From Synechococcus sp. JA-2-3B'a(2-13) (GTDB taxonomy: Bacteria > Cyanobacteriota > Cyanobacteriia > Thermostichales > Thermostichaceae), in contig NC_007776.1 of assembly GCF_000013225.1 (NCBI RefSeq), positions 577,277 to 641,276 of the forward strand: a DNA stretch of 64,000 nucleotides, read 5' to 3'. Below, piece after piece: positions 2,511-62,574 of this stretch (position 1 is its first letter; each line of letters begins with the position of its first letter). The position numbers and the translations under genes were made by a program. The notes under the pieces are model-generated. The model searched no databases. It saw nothing but the letters and a program-made list of their open reading frames with translations, and had not been told where the DNA came from.

Positions 2511-2996
2511 ATGGTTAAACAAATCCGGCTAGAGCCTTTATCTCGTGTCTCGGAGGTCGATACCTACAGCAATCTGCTGTCGGCCATTTTGTCGGAGGAG
2601 CTGCAGGTTTCGCGGGAATGTAACGGTCGCGGCCTCTGCGCCACCTGTCATGTTTACGTCAAAGAGGGAATGGAAAGCCTCACTCCCATCACCCCCCGCG
2701 AGGCCAAGACTCTGGAGACCATTACCAGCGCCCGCAGCAATTCCCGGCTGGCCTGTCAGGCGCGGGTGGTTTCCGATGGCGTGGTGGTGGAGCTGCCGCC
2801 GGGGATGTACGTGAACTCGCTGAGGGATATCGAAGTGCTCATCGGTCGGCGGGCCGAACAAGACCTGCTGCACCCACGGACGGGGAAGGTTTTGGTGGAG
2901 CAGGGCAAGATCATCACTCGCTCTACTGTTAAGCAGCTAGAAAATGAAGATTTCCGCATCATCGGCAGTACACTTGCCCAAACTCGGGAAGTTTGA
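2511..2996 (+). CDS. 2Fe-2S ferredoxin-like protein (Slr0148-like)
   Basis: From the ATG at 2511 this is a 161-residue protein with a ferredoxin-fold cluster site: CNGRGLCATC (C-x5-C-x2-C) followed by a fourth Cys in LACQARV. This adrenodoxin-type spacing binds a [2Fe-2S] cluster for one-electron transfer. A C-terminal extension of about 60 residues (LLHPRTGKVLVEQGKIITRSTV) is not part of plant-type ferredoxin. The frame stays open upstream to a TTG at 2466, but the hydrophobic prefix is not family-like. The downstream neighbours are V4R and phycobiliprotein-fold genes, the set found in the Synechocystis slr0144-slr0152 cluster reported to affect photosystem II assembly. A role there is inference from context. 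Confidence 0.8.
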   Translation: MVKQIRLEPLSRVSEVDTYSNLLSAILSEELQVSRECNGRGLCATCHVYVKEGMESLTPITPREAKTLETITSARSNSRLACQARVVSDGVVVELPPGMYVNSLRDIEVLIGRRAEQDLLHPRTGKVLVEQGKIITRSTVKQLENEDFRIIGSTLAQTREV

Positions 2997-3227
2997 TGGA
3001 TTGTCGATGTTCAGGGATCCCTTGGGCTCGGCAGGTGTTGTTTTATAAACAATCAAACAAGAGTTGAACAATGTTGGATCCCTCAGATAGCTGACAAGTT
3101 TATCGAATGCTTAGCCATTCATTTTGTTGACTCATTGGCATTGTCTGGCCCAGTTGATCCCTACAAATCCCACCAAATCCTGTTGCTTTGCAATCTAGAA
3201 TTATCCATTTTTTATCAGGAGAGCGCC

Positions 3228-3908
3228 ATGGCCACCACATCTCGACCGGATCCCCGTCCTGCAGTCACCATGCCTGTGGGCCGTGACAAGCATGCTCACT
3301 ACAGTTACCGCGATTTCTTTCGCTTCAACCGAGATCAGGGCACGATTATCGATTGGAACAACACCCAAAATCTGCTGTTGAGCGAAGACTTTATTGTGGG
3401 CTTGCAAACAGGCCTGGAACGGGAAGTGGGGGATGCTTCGGCGGCGGTGATGTACACCATTGGCAGAGATTGGGGCATCCGCGATGCCAAGCACTTCTCC
3501 GAGTGGTACGAGCGGGAGTATGGGATTGGCGTAAAACAGTCCAACCTTTTGTTTTTGCTGGAGACTTGGTGGTGGCCTTTTACGGCTCAGGGCTGGGGCA
3601 AGTGGGAGGTGGAAACCGAATCCAAACAAAAAGGCTTCCTGTTTATCAACTTGTTTGACTCGATGGTGGCTCGCACCCTTGGGGATGTGGGCAAGCCGGT
3701 TTGTCATCTCTATGCCGGGCTATTTGCCGGGTTTTTCACCGCTATGACTTCCCGCGAGCTGGCCTGCATCGAGATCCAGTGCTACGCCATGGGGGAAACC
3801 TACTGCAAATTCCTGTTGGGCGGGCAAGAACGCATTGATGCCGCCAATTTTTGGATCACCGAAGGGGCCAGCGCCCGCGAGATCGAGCAGCGTTTGCACC
3901 AGTTGTGA
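3228..3908 (+). CDS. V4R-domain protein (Slr0147-like)
   Basis: The start at 3228 follows a good AGGAGAG ribosome site and gives 226 residues. The C-terminal half carries the V4R signature: IQCYAMGETYCKFLLGG has the paired cysteines and glycine typical of this small-molecule/metal-binding domain. The N-terminal half has the conserved segment MYTIGRDWGIRDAKHF. V4R proteins include the bacteriochlorophyll-related BchJ and regulatory domains binding hydrocarbons. In Synechocystis two V4R proteins (Slr0144, Slr0147) belong to a photosystem II assembly operon. The same combination occurs here with a second V4R gene at 5588. A tetrapyrrole or lipid ligand is plausible but unproven. Confidence 0.82.
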   Translation: MATTSRPDPRPAVTMPVGRDKHAHYSYRDFFRFNRDQGTIIDWNNTQNLLLSEDFIVGLQTGLEREVGDASAAVMYTIGRDWGIRDAKHFSEWYEREYGIGVKQSNLLFLLETWWWPFTAQGWGKWEVETESKQKGFLFINLFDSMVARTLGDVGKPVCHLYAGLFAGFFTAMTSRELACIEIQCYAMGETYCKFLLGGQERIDAANFWITEGASAREIEQRLHQL

Positions 3909-3967
3909 GGCTTGCTTGTGGCTTTTGAAGGCTCTCTGGGATCCCTCGACACTTTGGAGAAACGCCC

Positions 3968-4249
3968 ATGGTCACCTTCAACTTAGACACCGATCTGGAC
4001 TTAACCCAGCCGCTGGCGGTCTTTTTGCAGGGGTTGAACTGGGATAACCGACCCCCGGCCAAGGCTTCCTCCGCTCAAGAACTGCCGCCGCAGTCCCCCG
4101 TGCTCTTTGCCCAGTCGGTGGGACAGTTTTTTGCCGGCTTCAATTGGTCGGGCATCTGCCCACGCTCAGAGCCGCTGCCGGAATTTCCGGCAGAGGATCC
4201 CTTTACTCTTGAGGATTTTGCCGCTTTGTTTGGCGGAGCTTTGCTCTAG
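3968..4249 (+). CDS. Small conserved hypothetical protein of the PSII-assembly-like cluster
   Basis: A 93-residue soluble protein between the first V4R gene and a phycobiliprotein-fold gene. It has two similar short motifs, AVFLQGLNWDNR near residue 18 and QFFAGFNWSG near residue 53. It therefore looks like two copies of an (F/V)F-x-G-(L/F)NW element separated by a proline-rich linker. The end is acidic and hydrophobic (PFTLEDFAALFGG). I do not recognise a named domain. Same-strand packing with its neighbours suggests co-transcription. The tandem NW motifs could be docking peptides for the neighbouring phycobiliprotein-like proteins; that is speculation. Confidence 0.7.
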   Translation: MVTFNLDTDLDLTQPLAVFLQGLNWDNRPPAKASSAQELPPQSPVLFAQSVGQFFAGFNWSGICPRSEPLPEFPAEDPFTLEDFAALFGGALL

Positions 4250-4310
4250 CTCTGGTTTGTTCAGGGATCTCGGTTTTGTTTTGCCCTCTGTTTTTAAGGA
4301 GACTTCACCC

Positions 4311-4904
4311 ATGGATGACCTTCACTCTTGGCCGGAGCGCATTGCCGATCGAGAAGGGGGTTACCTAACACCCGACGATCTGCAAGACCTGATTCGCTAC
4401 TCTCTCTCTTTTCAAGAACGGCTGGAGCTTTACCAGGTCTTACAACAGCAGGAGCTGACCTGGATCCAAAAGGTTTTGCAACAGCAGGGGCCAACCCCCG
4501 TCGCGACAGCGTTGCCCAGCAGCAATCCCGCCAGAGAGGGGGCAGAACCTTCTCTAACCCCGGCTCAGCGCCTCTTGGCTCGTCAATTGGCCTTTTGCTT
4601 GCGCTCCCTGGGCCTGAGCCTGTTGATAGGGGATCCCACCCCTGTGCAGCAGGTAACTCTTGGTGCGATGGAACAGTACCTAGGGTTGCCGCAAGCGCTC
4701 GCTCAGCTACGGGCAGTGGTTCAGGGATCCCTGCCGGCGGATCAGCAGGGGTTGCTTGCCCCCTACTGGCAAGAGCTACAAGCTGTCTGCGCCACTTCTC
4801 AGGCCCAGTTCCCTTCCCCCTCTTCTTCTAGGTCTGAGGCCGAGGTTGACCTGCCCACAGTTCCGCCGGAGAGGGCTCTCACCTTGGCGGAAATGTTTGT
4901 GTGA
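4311..4904 (+). CDS. Phycobiliprotein-fold protein without bilin cysteine
   Basis: The ATG at 4311 follows AAGGAG and gives 197 residues. The N-terminus (ADREGGYLTPDDLQDLI) matches the start of phycobilisome proteins (PF00502). The stretch CLRSLGLSLLIGDPTPVQQ, continuing to a YLGLPQALAQL segment, lines up with the allophycocyanin helix after the chromophore Cys, including the conserved GDxTP turn. At the aligned Cys84 position there is Leu, so covalent bilin binding is not expected. A Pro/Ser-rich, acidic C-terminal tail of about 35 residues is unusual. It lies 24 bases before a second phycobiliprotein-fold gene, so the two may form a heterodimer. Confidence 0.7.
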   Translation: MDDLHSWPERIADREGGYLTPDDLQDLIRYSLSFQERLELYQVLQQQELTWIQKVLQQQGPTPVATALPSSNPAREGAEPSLTPAQRLLARQLAFCLRSLGLSLLIGDPTPVQQVTLGAMEQYLGLPQALAQLRAVVQGSLPADQQGLLAPYWQELQAVCATSQAQFPSPSSSRSEAEVDLPTVPPERALTLAEMFV

Positions 4905-4928
4905 AGCCCACTGAAGGAGGCTCTATCT

Positions 4929-5399
4929 ATGAATTCAAGGGTTGCCGAGCTGATGCACCAAAGTGAGGGCCGCTATCTGCGCCCAGATGAGTTGAAAACT
5001 CTACACGCCTACGTGGAAGGGATCCCGAAGCGGGTTCGCCTTTACCAGGTTCTGCAGGCCAAAGAACAAGAGCTGCTGGATCGGGTGATGGAGAAGTTTC
5101 AGCCGATGATGCCGAATTTAATCCGCCAGCATGGTCACCTGGCCTGGGAGCGCTGCCGCCGGGATCTGAGCATGGTGTGGCGCTACTGCTGCATGGCCAT
5201 GCTGCTCAACGACGAAGACTACCTGAGGGATAAATTGCTCTACTGGCTGGAGACGATCCTGAAATCCTTCAAGATGCGCGACCAATGCCAGCCTGCCTAC
5301 AAGTTAATGCTCGACTCCCTGACCTACATCTTTGGGGCAGAAGAGAGCGAGATGATCCGTCCTTATCTGCTTTTGGCCAAATCCATGCTGGTTAACTAG
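4929..5399 (+). CDS. Phycobiliprotein-fold protein retaining a bilin-type cysteine
   Basis: A 156-residue protein with the phycobilisome-domain start SEGRYLRPDELKTLHAYVEG and helical core. The segment CRRDLSMVWRYCCMAMLLND aligns to the allophycocyanin motif C-x-R-D-L...Y-x-x-x-x-x-x-x-GD. Cys76 sits where the bilin-linking Cys84 lies and Asp79 where the bilin-contacting Asp87 lies. The usual chromophore-lyase context is absent and the rest diverges from ApcA/ApcB. It may be a bilin-binding assembly factor or a degenerate non-pigmented relative. A distant paralogue without this Cys is encoded at 60668-61141. A start SD of GGAGG lies just upstream. Confidence 0.72.
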   Translation: MNSRVAELMHQSEGRYLRPDELKTLHAYVEGIPKRVRLYQVLQAKEQELLDRVMEKFQPMMPNLIRQHGHLAWERCRRDLSMVWRYCCMAMLLNDEDYLRDKLLYWLETILKSFKMRDQCQPAYKLMLDSLTYIFGAEESEMIRPYLLLAKSMLVN

Positions 5400-5587
5400 G
5401 TCCATTCGCCCTCAATCTATTCACCAAAGTTCCCTGCGCCCTCCGATAGCGACCTCCTTCTCCCGATTTACTGTATACAGCTTATACAGCTCACTCCTTA
5501 ATCATTCATTCCCTCACGCCAAAAATTCCAGCCGCTCCCCAATCTATCCATCCCCGCCCTCTTGTCCACCTGACTGCGAGAATAGCC

Positions 5588-6277
5588 ATGATCTCCCTGC
5601 AAGAGATTCTGCAAGACCAGATCTTGCCTGGGCACTGCTTTAGCCCTGCCTACTACATCCGCCCTGACATCCACACCGGACTGCTGTACAGCCGCGGAGG
5701 ATACCGCTTGGCGGCCTTTCCCATGCCCCTGCTGGAAGCTCTCTACTCCGGCCTGCGCTATGAAACTGGCCAAGCCACCCGCGTCATTCTCTACAACTGT
5801 GGCCGCGATTGGGGAGAGGCATTTTTCCGCCGTGTTGAAGACGAGCTTTCCGGCTACTACCAGCAGCTGCTGCAGGAATTGCCGATGGGGATCTTCCTGG
5901 ATGCCCTCAGCGACCTCTGGGCCACCCACGGTTGGGGACGCCTGGAGCTGGACTTTTCCGCTGCTGACCACGGCTTGGTTCAGGCCGGGATCCGCAATTC
6001 CGGGTTTGCCCTTGCCGCTCGCGCCAGCTTCAACCCGGAGGAACCTTCTGCACGGCGAGAGCCTGCCGGATATTTGGAGGCGGGAATGCTGGCCAGCCTC
6101 TTCTCCTTGCTTTCGGGGCGGGATCTCATCTGCGTACAGACCACCTGCGAATCCCTGGGGGCCGATCTCAACCGCTTCCTCATCGGCACGGCTCAGCGGC
6201 TGCACCACTGCGAGGAATGGGTGCGCAAGGGCCTCTCCCACGACGAGATTTTGGATCGGCTCACGGCCAGTCCCTAG
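5588..6277 (+). CDS. Second V4R-domain protein (Slr0144-like)
   Basis: This 229-residue protein shares the V4R layout: an N-terminal part with VILYNCGRDWGEAFF and a C-terminal part with ICVQTTCESLGADLNRFLIG. The first Cys and Gly of the V4R signature are present, but the second Cys seen in the paralogue at 3228 (GETYCKF) is replaced (GADLNRF). If the paired Cys bind metal or ligand, this copy would bind differently. It closes the same-strand cluster that starts at 2511, after a 188-base gap from the previous gene. The function in photosystem II assembly is inferred from the homologous Synechocystis operon. Confidence 0.8.
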   Translation: MISLQEILQDQILPGHCFSPAYYIRPDIHTGLLYSRGGYRLAAFPMPLLEALYSGLRYETGQATRVILYNCGRDWGEAFFRRVEDELSGYYQQLLQELPMGIFLDALSDLWATHGWGRLELDFSAADHGLVQAGIRNSGFALAARASFNPEEPSARREPAGYLEAGMLASLFSLLSGRDLICVQTTCESLGADLNRFLIGTAQRLHHCEEWVRKGLSHDEILDRLTASP

Positions 6278-6314: not shown

Positions 6315-7022
6315 CTAGGGCAGGTAGGGCTGAAAATCTTGGGTGACCGTCAGCGTCAAGTTGGCATTGGCGTCGATCACCGCCACTTCCGGCGCCGTTA
6401 CATTGCCGATGACAGCCCCTGCCGCCGCTCCACCCAGCACTTTCTCCGTCGAGATCACGCGGTCGCCGAACAAGCCTCCCAAGATGGCCCCCGCAGCTGC
6501 CCCAATCAAGGCATCTTGCACAATCGCTTCCCCGGAAGTGTGGCGGGGATCCTTGCGCAGCGGGATAACCTGGCTCTGAGCGTAGAGGGGGTAGGATTGG
6601 CCGTTGAAAATCAAAGCCCGCGAAACAAACTGGGTGCCGCCGCTCACCGGCTGAAATTGGCCTTCCAAAACAGCCCCCGCCGGGACGACCATGTTGCCGT
6701 AGATGTCCCGCAGAGGGGTATCCAAGCTAAGGCTGACGGCACGGGTTTCCCCAGGGGCAATCAAGAGGGTTTCTGGGGAGCGATGCACCGCCTGGATCAG
6801 ATCCCCAGAGCGCAATAGCAACGTGGTTTGCAGTTGAAAGGGCTGGCCAGGTTGCAGGGGTTGAGGGCCAGGGGGAAGGGGGCGAGGATTCACAGGACGC
6901 CATCCCTCACCGGCAGGCGGTGGTGGCAAGGGCCCCATTTGGGCCAAAACTGGGGCGGCCATCTGCGCTGAGAGCAATCCGCCAAGCAGAGGAGCCAACA
7001 GGCGGCTGGCTGGGTTGGTCAT
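6315..7022 (-). CDS. Secreted glycine-zipper protein
   Basis: A 235-residue protein with a signal peptide (LLAPLLGGLLSAQMAAPVLAQ), then a Pro-rich linker and a beta-rich middle. The C-terminal part has two glycine-zipper segments: LIGAAAGAILGGLFGDRV and VLGGAAAGAVIGNV. Glycine zippers of this kind pack helices in membranes or fold back in periplasmic proteins. The start at 7022 has a GGGGGT stretch at good spacing; ATGs at 7043 and 7040 are in frame but lack spacing for a ribosome site. The gene converges on the V4R gene. It is a conserved cyanobacterial type of envelope protein; no specific role can be assigned. Confidence 0.75.
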   Translation of the reverse strand: MTNPASRLLAPLLGGLLSAQMAAPVLAQMGPLPPPPAGEGWRPVNPRPLPPGPQPLQPGQPFQLQTTLLLRSGDLIQAVHRSPETLLIAPGETRAVSLSLDTPLRDIYGNMVVPAGAVLEGQFQPVSGGTQFVSRALIFNGQSYPLYAQSQVIPLRKDPRHTSGEAIVQDALIGAAAGAILGGLFGDRVISTEKVLGGAAAGAVIGNVTAPEVAVIDANANLTLTVTQDFQPYLP

Positions 7023-7306
7023 GGTCTTACCCCCATTCATCATTCCTACGCTAGCTGCAAACCGGACAAAACCGGGAGCCTTTCGGGCCTTACCTATCTT
7101 TTACCTATCTTGATCAAAGCCAACTGAATGGAAATGGGCTACCTCAGGTGAGCAGATTCCGCTGCTCTTCGCTCCAGATAGAAGTACGGAAAAACGCTAG
7201 GGTTGCCCACTCTGGGATCCCTGCTGTCCATGTTAGATTAGGCTCTAGGTTTCTTCCCCTGCGTGGGGCCGAAGTCTTGCAGCATCCCAACCCTCTTCTT
7301 GTAGCT

Positions 7307-60410: not shown

Positions 60411-60671
60411 ATGAAAGTTGGAGATCGGGTGCGGGTGCGTACCAGCGTGATTGTCTATCACCACCCGGAACATCGCAATCAACCTTTCGACCTCAAAGGC
60501 ATGGAAGGGGAGCTGAAGGCCGTGATTCGGGATTGGAATGGCCGCCCGATCAGCGCCAACTTTCCCTTTCAGGTGCAGTTTGACAACAAGTTCCGTGCCC
60601 ATCTCCAGGCTGATGAGCTGGAGGTGGTGGAGTCGGCTGGTTCTGGAGAGTCTGCTGAGACGGCTGCCTAG
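60411..60671 (+). CDS. ftrV: Ferredoxin-thioredoxin reductase variable (alpha) chain
   Basis: An 86-residue SH3-like beta-barrel protein: MKVGDRVRVRTSVIVYHHPE, GMEGELKAVIRDWNGRPISA, PFQVQFDNKFRAHLQADELE. It stabilises the catalytic FTR subunit that passes electrons from ferredoxin to thioredoxin. Length is normal for cyanobacterial FtrV with a slightly extended acidic tail. It overlaps the convergent gene by four bases. Confidence 0.95.
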   Translation: MKVGDRVRVRTSVIVYHHPEHRNQPFDLKGMEGELKAVIRDWNGRPISANFPFQVQFDNKFRAHLQADELEVVESAGSGESAETAA

Positions 60672-61141
60672 TTGAGGCCCAACAGCGTGCGGTTGGTTTC
60701 CAGAATCGGCCTGATCAACTTGGTTTCTTCGGGGGTGAGGTAATTGGCTATCACTTCTTGTAGGAAGCGATAGGTGGCCTCGCAACTGCGTTGGGTGCGG
60801 AAGGCTCGCATCAGTGTTTGGAACCAGTAGAGAAATCGATCTTTGTAGCGTTGCTCATCGTCCAGGAGCATGGCCAAAGCCGAAAGGCGCAAAACCCGCA
60901 CGGTGTCAGCCTTCCACTTGTTGCTGAAGTCTTCCACCCCTCGCATGAGCAAGTAGGGATCCAGCGCGCGCATTTTCATCTCCACATCCCGGATGATCTG
61001 GGCCTCCGCCGCCTGAATCTTGCGATAGGCGCTCAGGCGAAGGTCAAAGGAGGCTAGATAGGTCTCCATGAACTGCAGCTCCTCATCCCTGAGATAGCGC
61101 CCGTCGGCAGCGATGCTCAGTTCGCGCAGTTGAGTCAGCAT
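60668..61141 (-). CDS. Phycobiliprotein-fold protein without bilin cysteine (paralogue of 4929-5399)
   Basis: A 157-residue protein from ATG 61141. The start ELSIAADGRYLRDEELQFME has the phycobilisome-domain pattern, and KADTVRVLRLSALAMLLDDE aligns with CRRDLSMVWRYCCMAMLLND of the gene at 4929. Here Trp replaces the bilin Cys, while the Asp three residues later is kept. The C-terminal helices (LIRPILETNRTLLG) match those of the paralogue. It is a non-pigmented phycobilisome-like protein of unknown role. Confidence 0.75.
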   Translation of the reverse strand: MLTQLRELSIAADGRYLRDEELQFMETYLASFDLRLSAYRKIQAAEAQIIRDVEMKMRALDPYLLMRGVEDFSNKWKADTVRVLRLSALAMLLDDEQRYKDRFLYWFQTLMRAFRTQRSCEATYRFLQEVIANYLTPEETKLIRPILETNRTLLGLN

Positions 61142-61356
61142 AGGGATCCCTGGGCAAGCTGGAATGAGAATGGAAAAAACACCACCTATCCTGGCTGACG
61201 GCACAGCCTTGGTCCCTCAATCCTATCCCCAAACTCCTGGCCAGAAGAGGGGAATTGCAGGGATCCCCGGCAACCCTCTCAGCTAGAAATCGCAGGAGCC
61301 CCGCACTGTACCCGTAGGGTCAGTGCCGGGAGGAATGCGGAAGTTATGATAGAACC

Positions 61357-62574
61357 ATGACCCAAGTCCTGACCGTCTCCTGCAAGCTCAAGGTAGCCCA
61401 GTCGCAAGCCGCCAAATTGGACGCGACTTTGGAGGCTTTTGGCCAAGCCTTGAATTGGGTCAACCAGAACACGCCGGAGAAGATCGTCAACGCGGTCAAG
61501 CTGCAATCCCTTTGCTACTACGAGATTCGAGCCCGGTTTGGCTTGTCCAGTAACTTGGCAAGGACTACGTCCCGCTTACGCGACCAACAGGTGTGCAGAC
61601 GGGTAGCGGGTTCCCGCAAAGTGGCTAAGCAGAAAAAGCGTCCCGTCAAGGAGTTTAAGAGCGGCTTTGTTACCTACGACGCCCGTATCTTTTCGTTCCG
61701 TCAAAAAGACTGGACGGTGTCGCTGACCACGGTGGAAGGGAGAGAACGCTTTGAACTGGCCATTGGCAACTACCAGCGTGGGATGCTGGCTGGTTCCAAC
61801 CCCAAATCTGCCACCCTGGTCAAGCGCAAAGATGGCTCCTACTACATCCAGATTTGCGTAGAGAAAAAGCCACCCAAACAACAAGATACCGACAAGGTGA
61901 TCGGGGTGGACTTGGGAAGGACGGATATTGCCCATACGTCAGAAGGGGACAACTGGAATGGACAGCAGTTGAACAGAGTCCGCGACCGCTACTCCCGGTT
62001 GAGGGCGGCACTCCAACGCAAAGCCAGTAAGGGCACACGCAGTTCGCGGCGCAGATGCCGTCAACTGCTGCAACGGCTGTCTGGCAAGGAGAGGCGCTTT
62101 CAGGCGTGGGTCAATCATCGCATCTCCAAAGCTATTGTCTCTAGGGCAAAGACCACAAACAGCGCTATTGCCCTGGAAGACCTGACAGGGATCCGGAAAA
62201 GAGTCAATCAACAGCCGCGCAACAAGGCCGAACGGCGCAGAACCAACAGTTGGGCGTTCTACCAACTGAGGCAGTTTCTGGAATACAAGGCGAGGGTTGC
62301 AGGGGTTTCTCTGATTCTTGTGCCGCCCGCCTACACGTCGCAGACCTGCCACAAGTGTTTGCACATCCATCCCGACCCTGCGCAATCCTATCGCAGTGGC
62401 AAGTCGTTCAAGTGTGGGCACTGTGGATGGGAAGGGGATGCGGATTTGAATGGTGCGAATGTGATTGCGCTCTTGGGGGCTGTCGTAAACCGGCCTAGAG
62501 GTCCGGGCCTGTTTTGTTCTCTGGTAGAGCAGAACAGGCTCAGGGCTACTGAAAGCCCGCTCCGTACCGCTTAG
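61357..62574 (+). CDS. tnpB: TnpB RNA-guided nuclease (copy C, with 24-bp unit)
   Basis: A 405-residue TnpB with the same RuvC residues and zinc finger as copies A and B. The region from about 61600 to 61900 is clearly more diverged (SRKVAKQKKRPVKEFKSGF, KKPPKQQDTDKVIGVDLG) than the rest, suggesting recombination between related elements. It carries the same 24-bp unit variant as copy B near residue 70. Confidence 0.93.
   Translation: MTQVLTVSCKLKVAQSQAAKLDATLEAFGQALNWVNQNTPEKIVNAVKLQSLCYYEIRARFGLSSNLARTTSRLRDQQVCRRVAGSRKVAKQKKRPVKEFKSGFVTYDARIFSFRQKDWTVSLTTVEGRERFELAIGNYQRGMLAGSNPKSATLVKRKDGSYYIQICVEKKPPKQQDTDKVIGVDLGRTDIAHTSEGDNWNGQQLNRVRDRYSRLRAALQRKASKGTRSSRRRCRQLLQRLSGKERRFQAWVNHRISKAIVSRAKTTNSAIALEDLTGIRKRVNQQPRNKAERRRTNSWAFYQLRQFLEYKARVAGVSLILVPPAYTSQTCHKCLHIHPDPAQSYRSGKSFKCGHCGWEGDADLNGANVIALLGAVVNRPRGPGLFCSLVEQNRLRATESPLRTA
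61560..61583 (-). repeat. 24-bp unit variant inside tnpB copy C
   Basis: Identical to the unit in copy B (ACTACG...TTACGCGA) and at the same site. Confidence 0.97.

Follow-up and report, generated by a model that had tools for sequence, protein, structure and literature searches.

A candidate bilin-handling gene cluster of the Thermostichales and its recurring NW-repeat protein

Overview

The window analysed here is a stretch of 64,000 nucleotides from Synechococcus sp. JA-2-3B'a(2-13) (NC_007776.1, positions 577,277 to 641,276), a genome of 3,046,682 bases. Six genes on its + strand, spanning 2511-6277, encode a 2Fe-2S protein, V4R protein A (V4RA), an NW-repeat protein (NW), a phycobiliprotein-fold protein without a bilin cysteine (PBS1), a bilin-type globin (BBAG) and V4R protein B (V4RB). 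On balance, we lean towards reading this operon as the Thermostichales form of an Fe-S/V4R/globin cluster whose products would assemble into a single complex holding a bilin or a related open tetrapyrrole and exchanging electrons. The co-encoded Fe-S protein, V4R proteins of both kinds and phycobiliprotein-like globin place it with the cyanobacterial BBAG cluster slr0144-slr0149, which Rockwell, Martin and Lagarias (2023, PMC10151467) trace back to pre-PcyA-associated clusters in other bacteria. Affinity purification with Slr0149-GFP in Synechocystis lends support to interactions among Slr0144-Slr0149 (PMC9880817), and the slr0144-slr0151 operon has been named pap, its products being said to stabilise photosystem II (PSII) intermediates (PMC4853703). 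The core of the finding is thus already in print, and NW is the new element of this analysis.

The first-pass annotation of this DNA had likened the region to slr0144-slr0152, and the likeness is borne out by the recurrence of the components together in other cyanobacteria. Its coordinates and residue assignments for 2511-6277 also hold, and Pfam confirms the 2Fe-2S protein, the two V4R proteins and the two phycobiliprotein-fold proteins, every Fer2, V4R and Phycobilisome score reported here being above the curated cut-off. NW and a second, partial cluster elsewhere in the same genome were missing from that listing. The second cluster (L019 3523-5938) comprises V4RA, NW, a globin with C-R-R-H and V4RB, and a 2Fe-2S gene and PBS1 are not present in it. 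The two clusters of this genome agree with V4R duplications reported within the Thermostichales (PMC13326532).

The bilin-type globin and its cysteine

BBAG (4929-5399, + strand; 156 residues; Pfam Phycobilisome 63.5 bits) carries the candidate bilin attachment motif C76-R-R-D79, encoded at 5154-5165, which aligns with the C-x-R-D chromophore motif of all eight phycobiliproteins from the same genome. The AlphaFold2 model of BBAG has a predicted local distance difference test score (pLDDT) of 94.6, and allophycocyanin chains are the top-scoring structures for it in the PDB (Foldseek E 3.8e-06; VIA Z 18.4 over 154 residues). Orthologues were sought in 8 genomes of the family, one of which (G195) yielded no copy of this cluster. 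C-x-R-D is kept in all 7 orthologues found, as CRRD in 6/6 genomes of the genus and as CHRD in one genome of another genus, which rules out Cys76 as a chance residue. The first-pass annotation had left its bilin proposal open to refutation by loss of Cys76 in close orthologues, and the residue is retained throughout. The ratio of nonsynonymous to synonymous substitution rates (dN/dS) of BBAG is 0.07-0.09 in 5 comparisons, indicating slow evolution. Because the cysteine is conserved, the protein evolves slowly and the allophycocyanin-like model is confident, a covalent bilin at Cys76 of BBAG is plausible.

Two other globins of the window have no such cysteine, as had been noted at first pass and as alignment confirms. 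PBS1 (4311-4904, + strand; Pfam Phycobilisome 25 bits against a cut-off of 22.2 for the open reading frame (ORF) containing it) reads L-A-R-Q, with Leu at the Cys position in 7/7 orthologues. Its C-terminal tail, ALTLAEMFV, resembles the C-terminal motif of NW. The stand-alone paralogue at 60668-61141 on the - strand (Pfam Phycobilisome 55 bits for ORF 60668-61204) reads W-K-A-D, with Trp at that position in 8/8 orthologues. In the tree it clusters with those globins of other cyanobacteria whose genes come after the 2Fe-2S gene (25 rows; SH-like approximate likelihood ratio test (SH-aLRT) 100) and is thus of the slr0149 type.

Cyanobacterial cluster globins at positions other than slr0146, most of which are of the slr0149 type, carry Cys in 26 cases, Trp in 26 and Ser in 1 (n=53); addition of the Thermostichales stand-alone copies gives Cys 26, Trp 34 and Ser 1 (n=61; window 60668-61141 and loci L049-L218). 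On a quick tree the Trp state must have changed at least 5 times, and well supported branches force 3 of these changes. Globins of the slr0149 type thus tend to hold either the bilin Cys or Trp at this position, and the Trp might fill the bilin pocket. The stand-alone Trp-type gene overlaps, tail to tail, the gene for a ferredoxin-thioredoxin reductase variable chain (60411-60671; PF02941), homologues of which occur in 6/7 other fetched stand-alone globin loci. Genomes G173 and G085 each contain a further locus (L060 and L061) with V4RA and two C-R-R-D globins, and without NW, V4RB or a 2Fe-2S gene beside them.

The Fe-S and V4R proteins

The first gene of the cluster (2511-2996, + strand; Pfam Fer2 34.4 bits) encodes a 2Fe-2S ferredoxin-like protein of the slr0148 position, whose four cysteines are kept in 95/95 aligned cluster members. 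Despite its Cx5Cx2C...C pattern, it scores below the cut-off of the ISC-type ferredoxin model TIGR02007 (57 vs 132 bits).

V4RA (3228-3908, + strand; slr0144 type; Pfam V4R 69 bits for the ORF containing it) has four residues, C159, E182, C185 and C193, that are invariant in 127/127 sequences, a set partly selected because some loci were fetched through search patterns covering the WWW and E-x-Q-C stretches. Its profile weakly matches the sensor structures of PoxR/MopR (5fru and 5kbe, E 0.0014 and 0.0039), in which the C, E, C and C residues align in the same order; unlike those proteins, V4RA is without an ATPase or DNA-binding part. We take these residues to be zinc-binding in PoxR/MopR; a literature search on zinc in MopR gave nothing. 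V4RB (5588-6277, + strand; slr0147 type; Pfam V4R 39.5 bits) has largely lost the metal-site residues, with positions 161 and 194 varying widely and position 184 being Q or E.

The NW-repeat protein

NW is a protein of 93 residues encoded at 3968-4249 (+ strand), at the slr0145 position. Neither the single protein nor the family matches any Pfam or NCBIfam model, and no solved structure matches NW by sequence. The literature search on slr0145 returned one passing mention in one paper, and the available text of PMC10151467 makes no mention of an NW-repeat protein. In cyanobacteria the family measures about 80-250 residues and combines repeats of V-x2-F-F-x3-N-W-x-G with a C-terminal L-T-L-x-D-L-x-x-L-F. 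The window's copy has two W motifs, at residues 16-27 (4013-4048) and 50-62 (4115-4153), and the C-terminal motif at residues 79-89 (4202-4234). Around every NW Trp the residue preferences are alike in cyanobacteria and elsewhere, with Val at -9, Phe at -6/-5, an aliphatic residue at -2, Asn or Pro at -1 and Gly or Asn at +2. NW is probably disordered; its AlphaFold2 model (pLDDT 69) places short helices at or immediately next to both W motifs, and also at the C-terminal motif.

The motifs recur in the gap between the V4RA and globin genes. At least two loose motifs were found there in 80/90 cyanobacterial and 21/32 other loci, leaving 10 and 11 loci, respectively, with fewer than two. Residue shuffles (500) gave means of 11.9 and 2.4 loci and maxima of 22 and 8. 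Among background ORFs of 80-350 residues in the same loci, 221/3757 (6%) in cyanobacteria and 54/1996 (3%) elsewhere had at least two motifs. A tighter pattern was present in 62/90 cyanobacterial and 10/32 other gaps compared with 0/5753 background ORFs. Because each locus contributes the best among its several gap ORFs, the gap count is slightly favoured over the background ORFs, and the shuffles repeat the same choice. The pattern was drawn from cyanobacterial sequences; the count for the non-cyanobacterial gap ORFs is partly post hoc, these ORFs having been inspected before it was made. Deduplication of the loci relied on the longest gap ORF, L139 being dropped as a copy of L085, and three non-cyanobacterial loci with no downstream partner (L144, L168 and L194) were left uncounted. 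The shuffles and background ORFs rule out chance as the source of the motifs. Likewise, a dN/dS of 0.12-0.22 (4 comparisons), syntenic recurrence and co-occurrence rule out a spurious ORF.

Co-occurrence was assessed in a sample of 194 genomes from the phylum. A search with 16 aligned NW proteins gave matches in 34 of them, made up of 33/40 genomes that have V4R and 1/154 that do not, and in those 33 the NW matches adjoin V4R genes. The seven V4R-positive genomes with no match comprise one in which the locus lies at a contig edge (G005), two of a divergent type (G054 and G191) and four others (G004, G018, G035 and G092). The single V4R-less match (G032) lies on a contig of 3.5 kb together with a repeated-globin ORF, a heme oxygenase and a bilin reductase fragment, and this NW has three motifs. 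The repeated-globin ORF (L219 12-1529) encodes 505 residues with, by eye, three globin-like repeats, two stretches of which match PF00502. No V4R was found in this 87%-complete genome, so NW accompanies bilin globins even where V4R is not seen. A search for further genomes with NW and without V4R, covering 7 genomes of the same order, yielded only G032 and the already known G010.

That NW belongs to this system is therefore well supported. In one relative (G196, L120) the NW reading frame is broken, which may mean that this relative can do without NW or that its record contains an error; a natural NW fusion at L120 was ruled out, the ORF being a frame-shifted gene beside PBS1. In four related cyanobacterial loci (L081, L083, L084 and L086) the gap ORF has a differently worded repeat (F-x-L-G-L ... 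W), which in three of them ends in a D-L-x-L-L-E-D-L-L-like stretch; L083, L084 and L086 each carry an additional 2Fe-2S gene. From its motif grammar, position and co-occurrence, we hypothesise that NW is a multivalent tether of the complex.

Distribution and origin of the cluster

The usual order in 40 fetched cyanobacterial loci is V4RA, NW, globin, V4RB, 2Fe-2S and globin, which by position is taken as slr0144 to slr0149. A V4RA profile search of the genome collection returned 328 relatives, and the distribution outside cyanobacteria rests on the best 80 of these, 35 of which lie outside photosynthetic cyanobacteria by record title. Among these best 80, relatives of the cluster occur in Myxococcota, Planctomycetota, Verrucomicrobiota, Acidobacteriota and others. 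The common order outside cyanobacteria is 2Fe-2S, V4RA, gap ORF (NW), globin and V4RB, the order of the window's cluster. A bilin reductase family ORF lies inside 17/35 fetched non-cyanobacterial loci; the genome-wide search took 31 of these loci, from 29 genomes, and 25 of the genomes had a family match. Occurrence in phyla without PSII, usually in genomes that carry a bilin reductase, ties the system's origin to bilins rather than to PSII. An ancestral bilin-handling role is therefore likelier than a PSII-assembly role, and the PSII label on the operon may describe a late use.

Comparison with known systems

The window's cluster shares with the cyanobacterial BBAG cluster the Fe-S protein, V4R clades A and B, phycobiliprotein-like globins, the CxRD found in some cyanobacterial BBAGs and, in cyanobacteria, the absence of a bilin reductase or heme oxygenase beside it (PMC10151467). 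It differs in that the Cys-less PBS1 precedes BBAG and the gene order is the non-cyanobacterial one. The pap operon of Synechocystis (slr0144-slr0152) has by position the same V4RA, small protein, globin, V4RB, Fe-S protein and globin. In the window, by contrast, the 2Fe-2S gene comes first and only five of the slr0144-slr0149 gene types are inside the cluster; the slr0149-type globin, with Trp for Cys, stands alone at 60668, about 54 kb away, and slr0150-slr0152 are not in the cluster, which ends at 6277.

With allophycocyanin and other phycobiliproteins BBAG shares the fold and the CxRD motif. It differs from them in having about 15-23% identity in the structural matches, in scoring under all NCBIfam subunit cut-offs and in occupying a separate tree branch. 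In a quick tree, for which long branches were warned of, BBAG falls within a 57-row clade of cyanobacterial cluster globins (SH-aLRT 94), and the eight phycobiliproteins lie across a branch with SH-aLRT 95.

Proposed mechanism and alternative explanations

In the complex proposed here, the cluster products would together hold a bilin or related open tetrapyrrole, and electrons would be exchanged with the bilin or its surroundings. BBAG would carry a covalent bilin at Cys76, V4RA would offer a hydrophobic ligand pocket, PBS1 and V4RB may be ligand-poor partners and the 2Fe-2S protein would supply electrons. The short helical W motifs of NW could dock on the folded subunits and tether them. Such a complex may have originated as a device for handling bilins, in bacteria that possess heme oxygenase and bilin reductase, and, as the literature suggests, may later have been recruited in cyanobacteria to the assembly or repair of photosystems. 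PMC10151467 describes the functions of BBAGs as unknown and shows that relatives designated BBAG-1, -2 and -3 bind bilin in Escherichia coli.

Several observations weigh against this proposal. CxxD is kept by 13/38 globins outside cyanobacteria and by 4/75 at the slr0146 position outside the Thermostichales, so the cysteine is not universal in the cluster and bilin attachment is not required of every copy. The available sections of PMC10151467 report no bilin binding for cyanobacterial BBAGs. No heme oxygenase or bilin reductase lies inside this cluster, and the genome's single bilin reductase match, at 716357-717022, is far from it. The tethering by NW, in turn, is argued from motif grammar, position and co-occurrence.

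The first-pass annotation had proposed a chaperone step for chlorophyll or bilin in photosystem assembly, in which the V4R proteins and globins would carry a chlorophyll precursor or bilin to nascent PSII. The stabilisation of PSII intermediates ascribed to pap products (PMC4853703) speaks for it, as do the slower growth and lower PSII activity listed in a review (PMC9145668). We nevertheless judge it unlikely. The cluster is common in phyla without PSII, V4R is found in just 40/194 sampled genomes of the phylum, and the PSII functions may belong to slr0150-slr0152, which some studies imply may mediate photosystem functions (PMC10151467) and which are not in this cluster. Membership of BchJ (TIGR02019) also fails, with V4RA at 21 vs 74 bits and no match for V4RB. 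The bilin half of that proposal is favoured, and the chlorophyll half is unsupported. Its photosystem half, which is literature-based, is probably secondary and, given relatives in phyla without PSII, does not hold as the original role.

Ranked somewhat below this is a sensor, in which the bilin globin and the PoxR/MopR-like V4RA would detect light, the amount of bilin or a hydrophobic metabolite, with the redox protein resetting or reporting the state. Among solved structures the ligand-sensing domains of PoxR and MopR are, weakly, the closest to V4RA, and a non-cyanobacterial locus (L141) has by eye a protein kinase-like ORF between cluster genes. However, Pfam and NCBIfam recognised no output domain among the window's cluster proteins, and the bilin holoproteins of BBAG-1 and of two tested BBAG-2 were reported to be photoinactive or photoinert (PMC10151467). 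We regard as quite improbable a minor phycobilisome or antenna component, with BBAG and PBS1 as an alpha/beta-like pair held by the adjoining phycobilisome-linker protein of 182 residues (1391-1939, - strand; PF00427 127 bits). This short linker is indeed a divergent neighbour at 7/7 Thermostichales loci of this cluster, the window included, and BBAG matches allophycocyanin chains along its whole length. Yet the linker was not detected at the remaining cluster loci searched, BBAG is far under the ApcA (23.5 vs 270 bits) and ApcB (36 vs 228 bits) cut-offs and apart from phycobiliproteins in the tree, and characterised BBAGs are weakly fluorescent (3-7%; PMC10151467). It is uncertain whether the linker is part of this system.

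Neighbouring features

Further linker domains are found elsewhere in the genome. The ORF taken as the next gene after the cluster (6315-7043, opposite strand) has weak glycine-zipper matches only. At 61357-62574 the window has an ORF that by eye resembles a TnpB/OrfB transposon protein. Loci L121, L122, L123 and L124 have no match to the substrate-binding protein that neighbours the cluster in the window.

Significance

Beyond the bilin-holding, electron-exchanging complex favoured above, a bolder reading can be offered as a tentative possibility. The cluster might be an ancient bilin-handling assembly, older than its photosynthetic use and organised by an unrecognised disordered NW family, the V-x2-FF-x3-NW-x-G helices of which might provide simultaneous docking for several globins and V4R proteins, in the manner of a minimal precursor to the phycobilisome linkers. 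In several other bacterial phyla, mostly ones not known to be photosynthetic, NW is again found next to the cluster's genes. A conserved, multi-motif protein of the same cluster in several phyla gives a handle on what holds the complex together, and also on whether bilin-protein assemblies preceded phycobilisomes.

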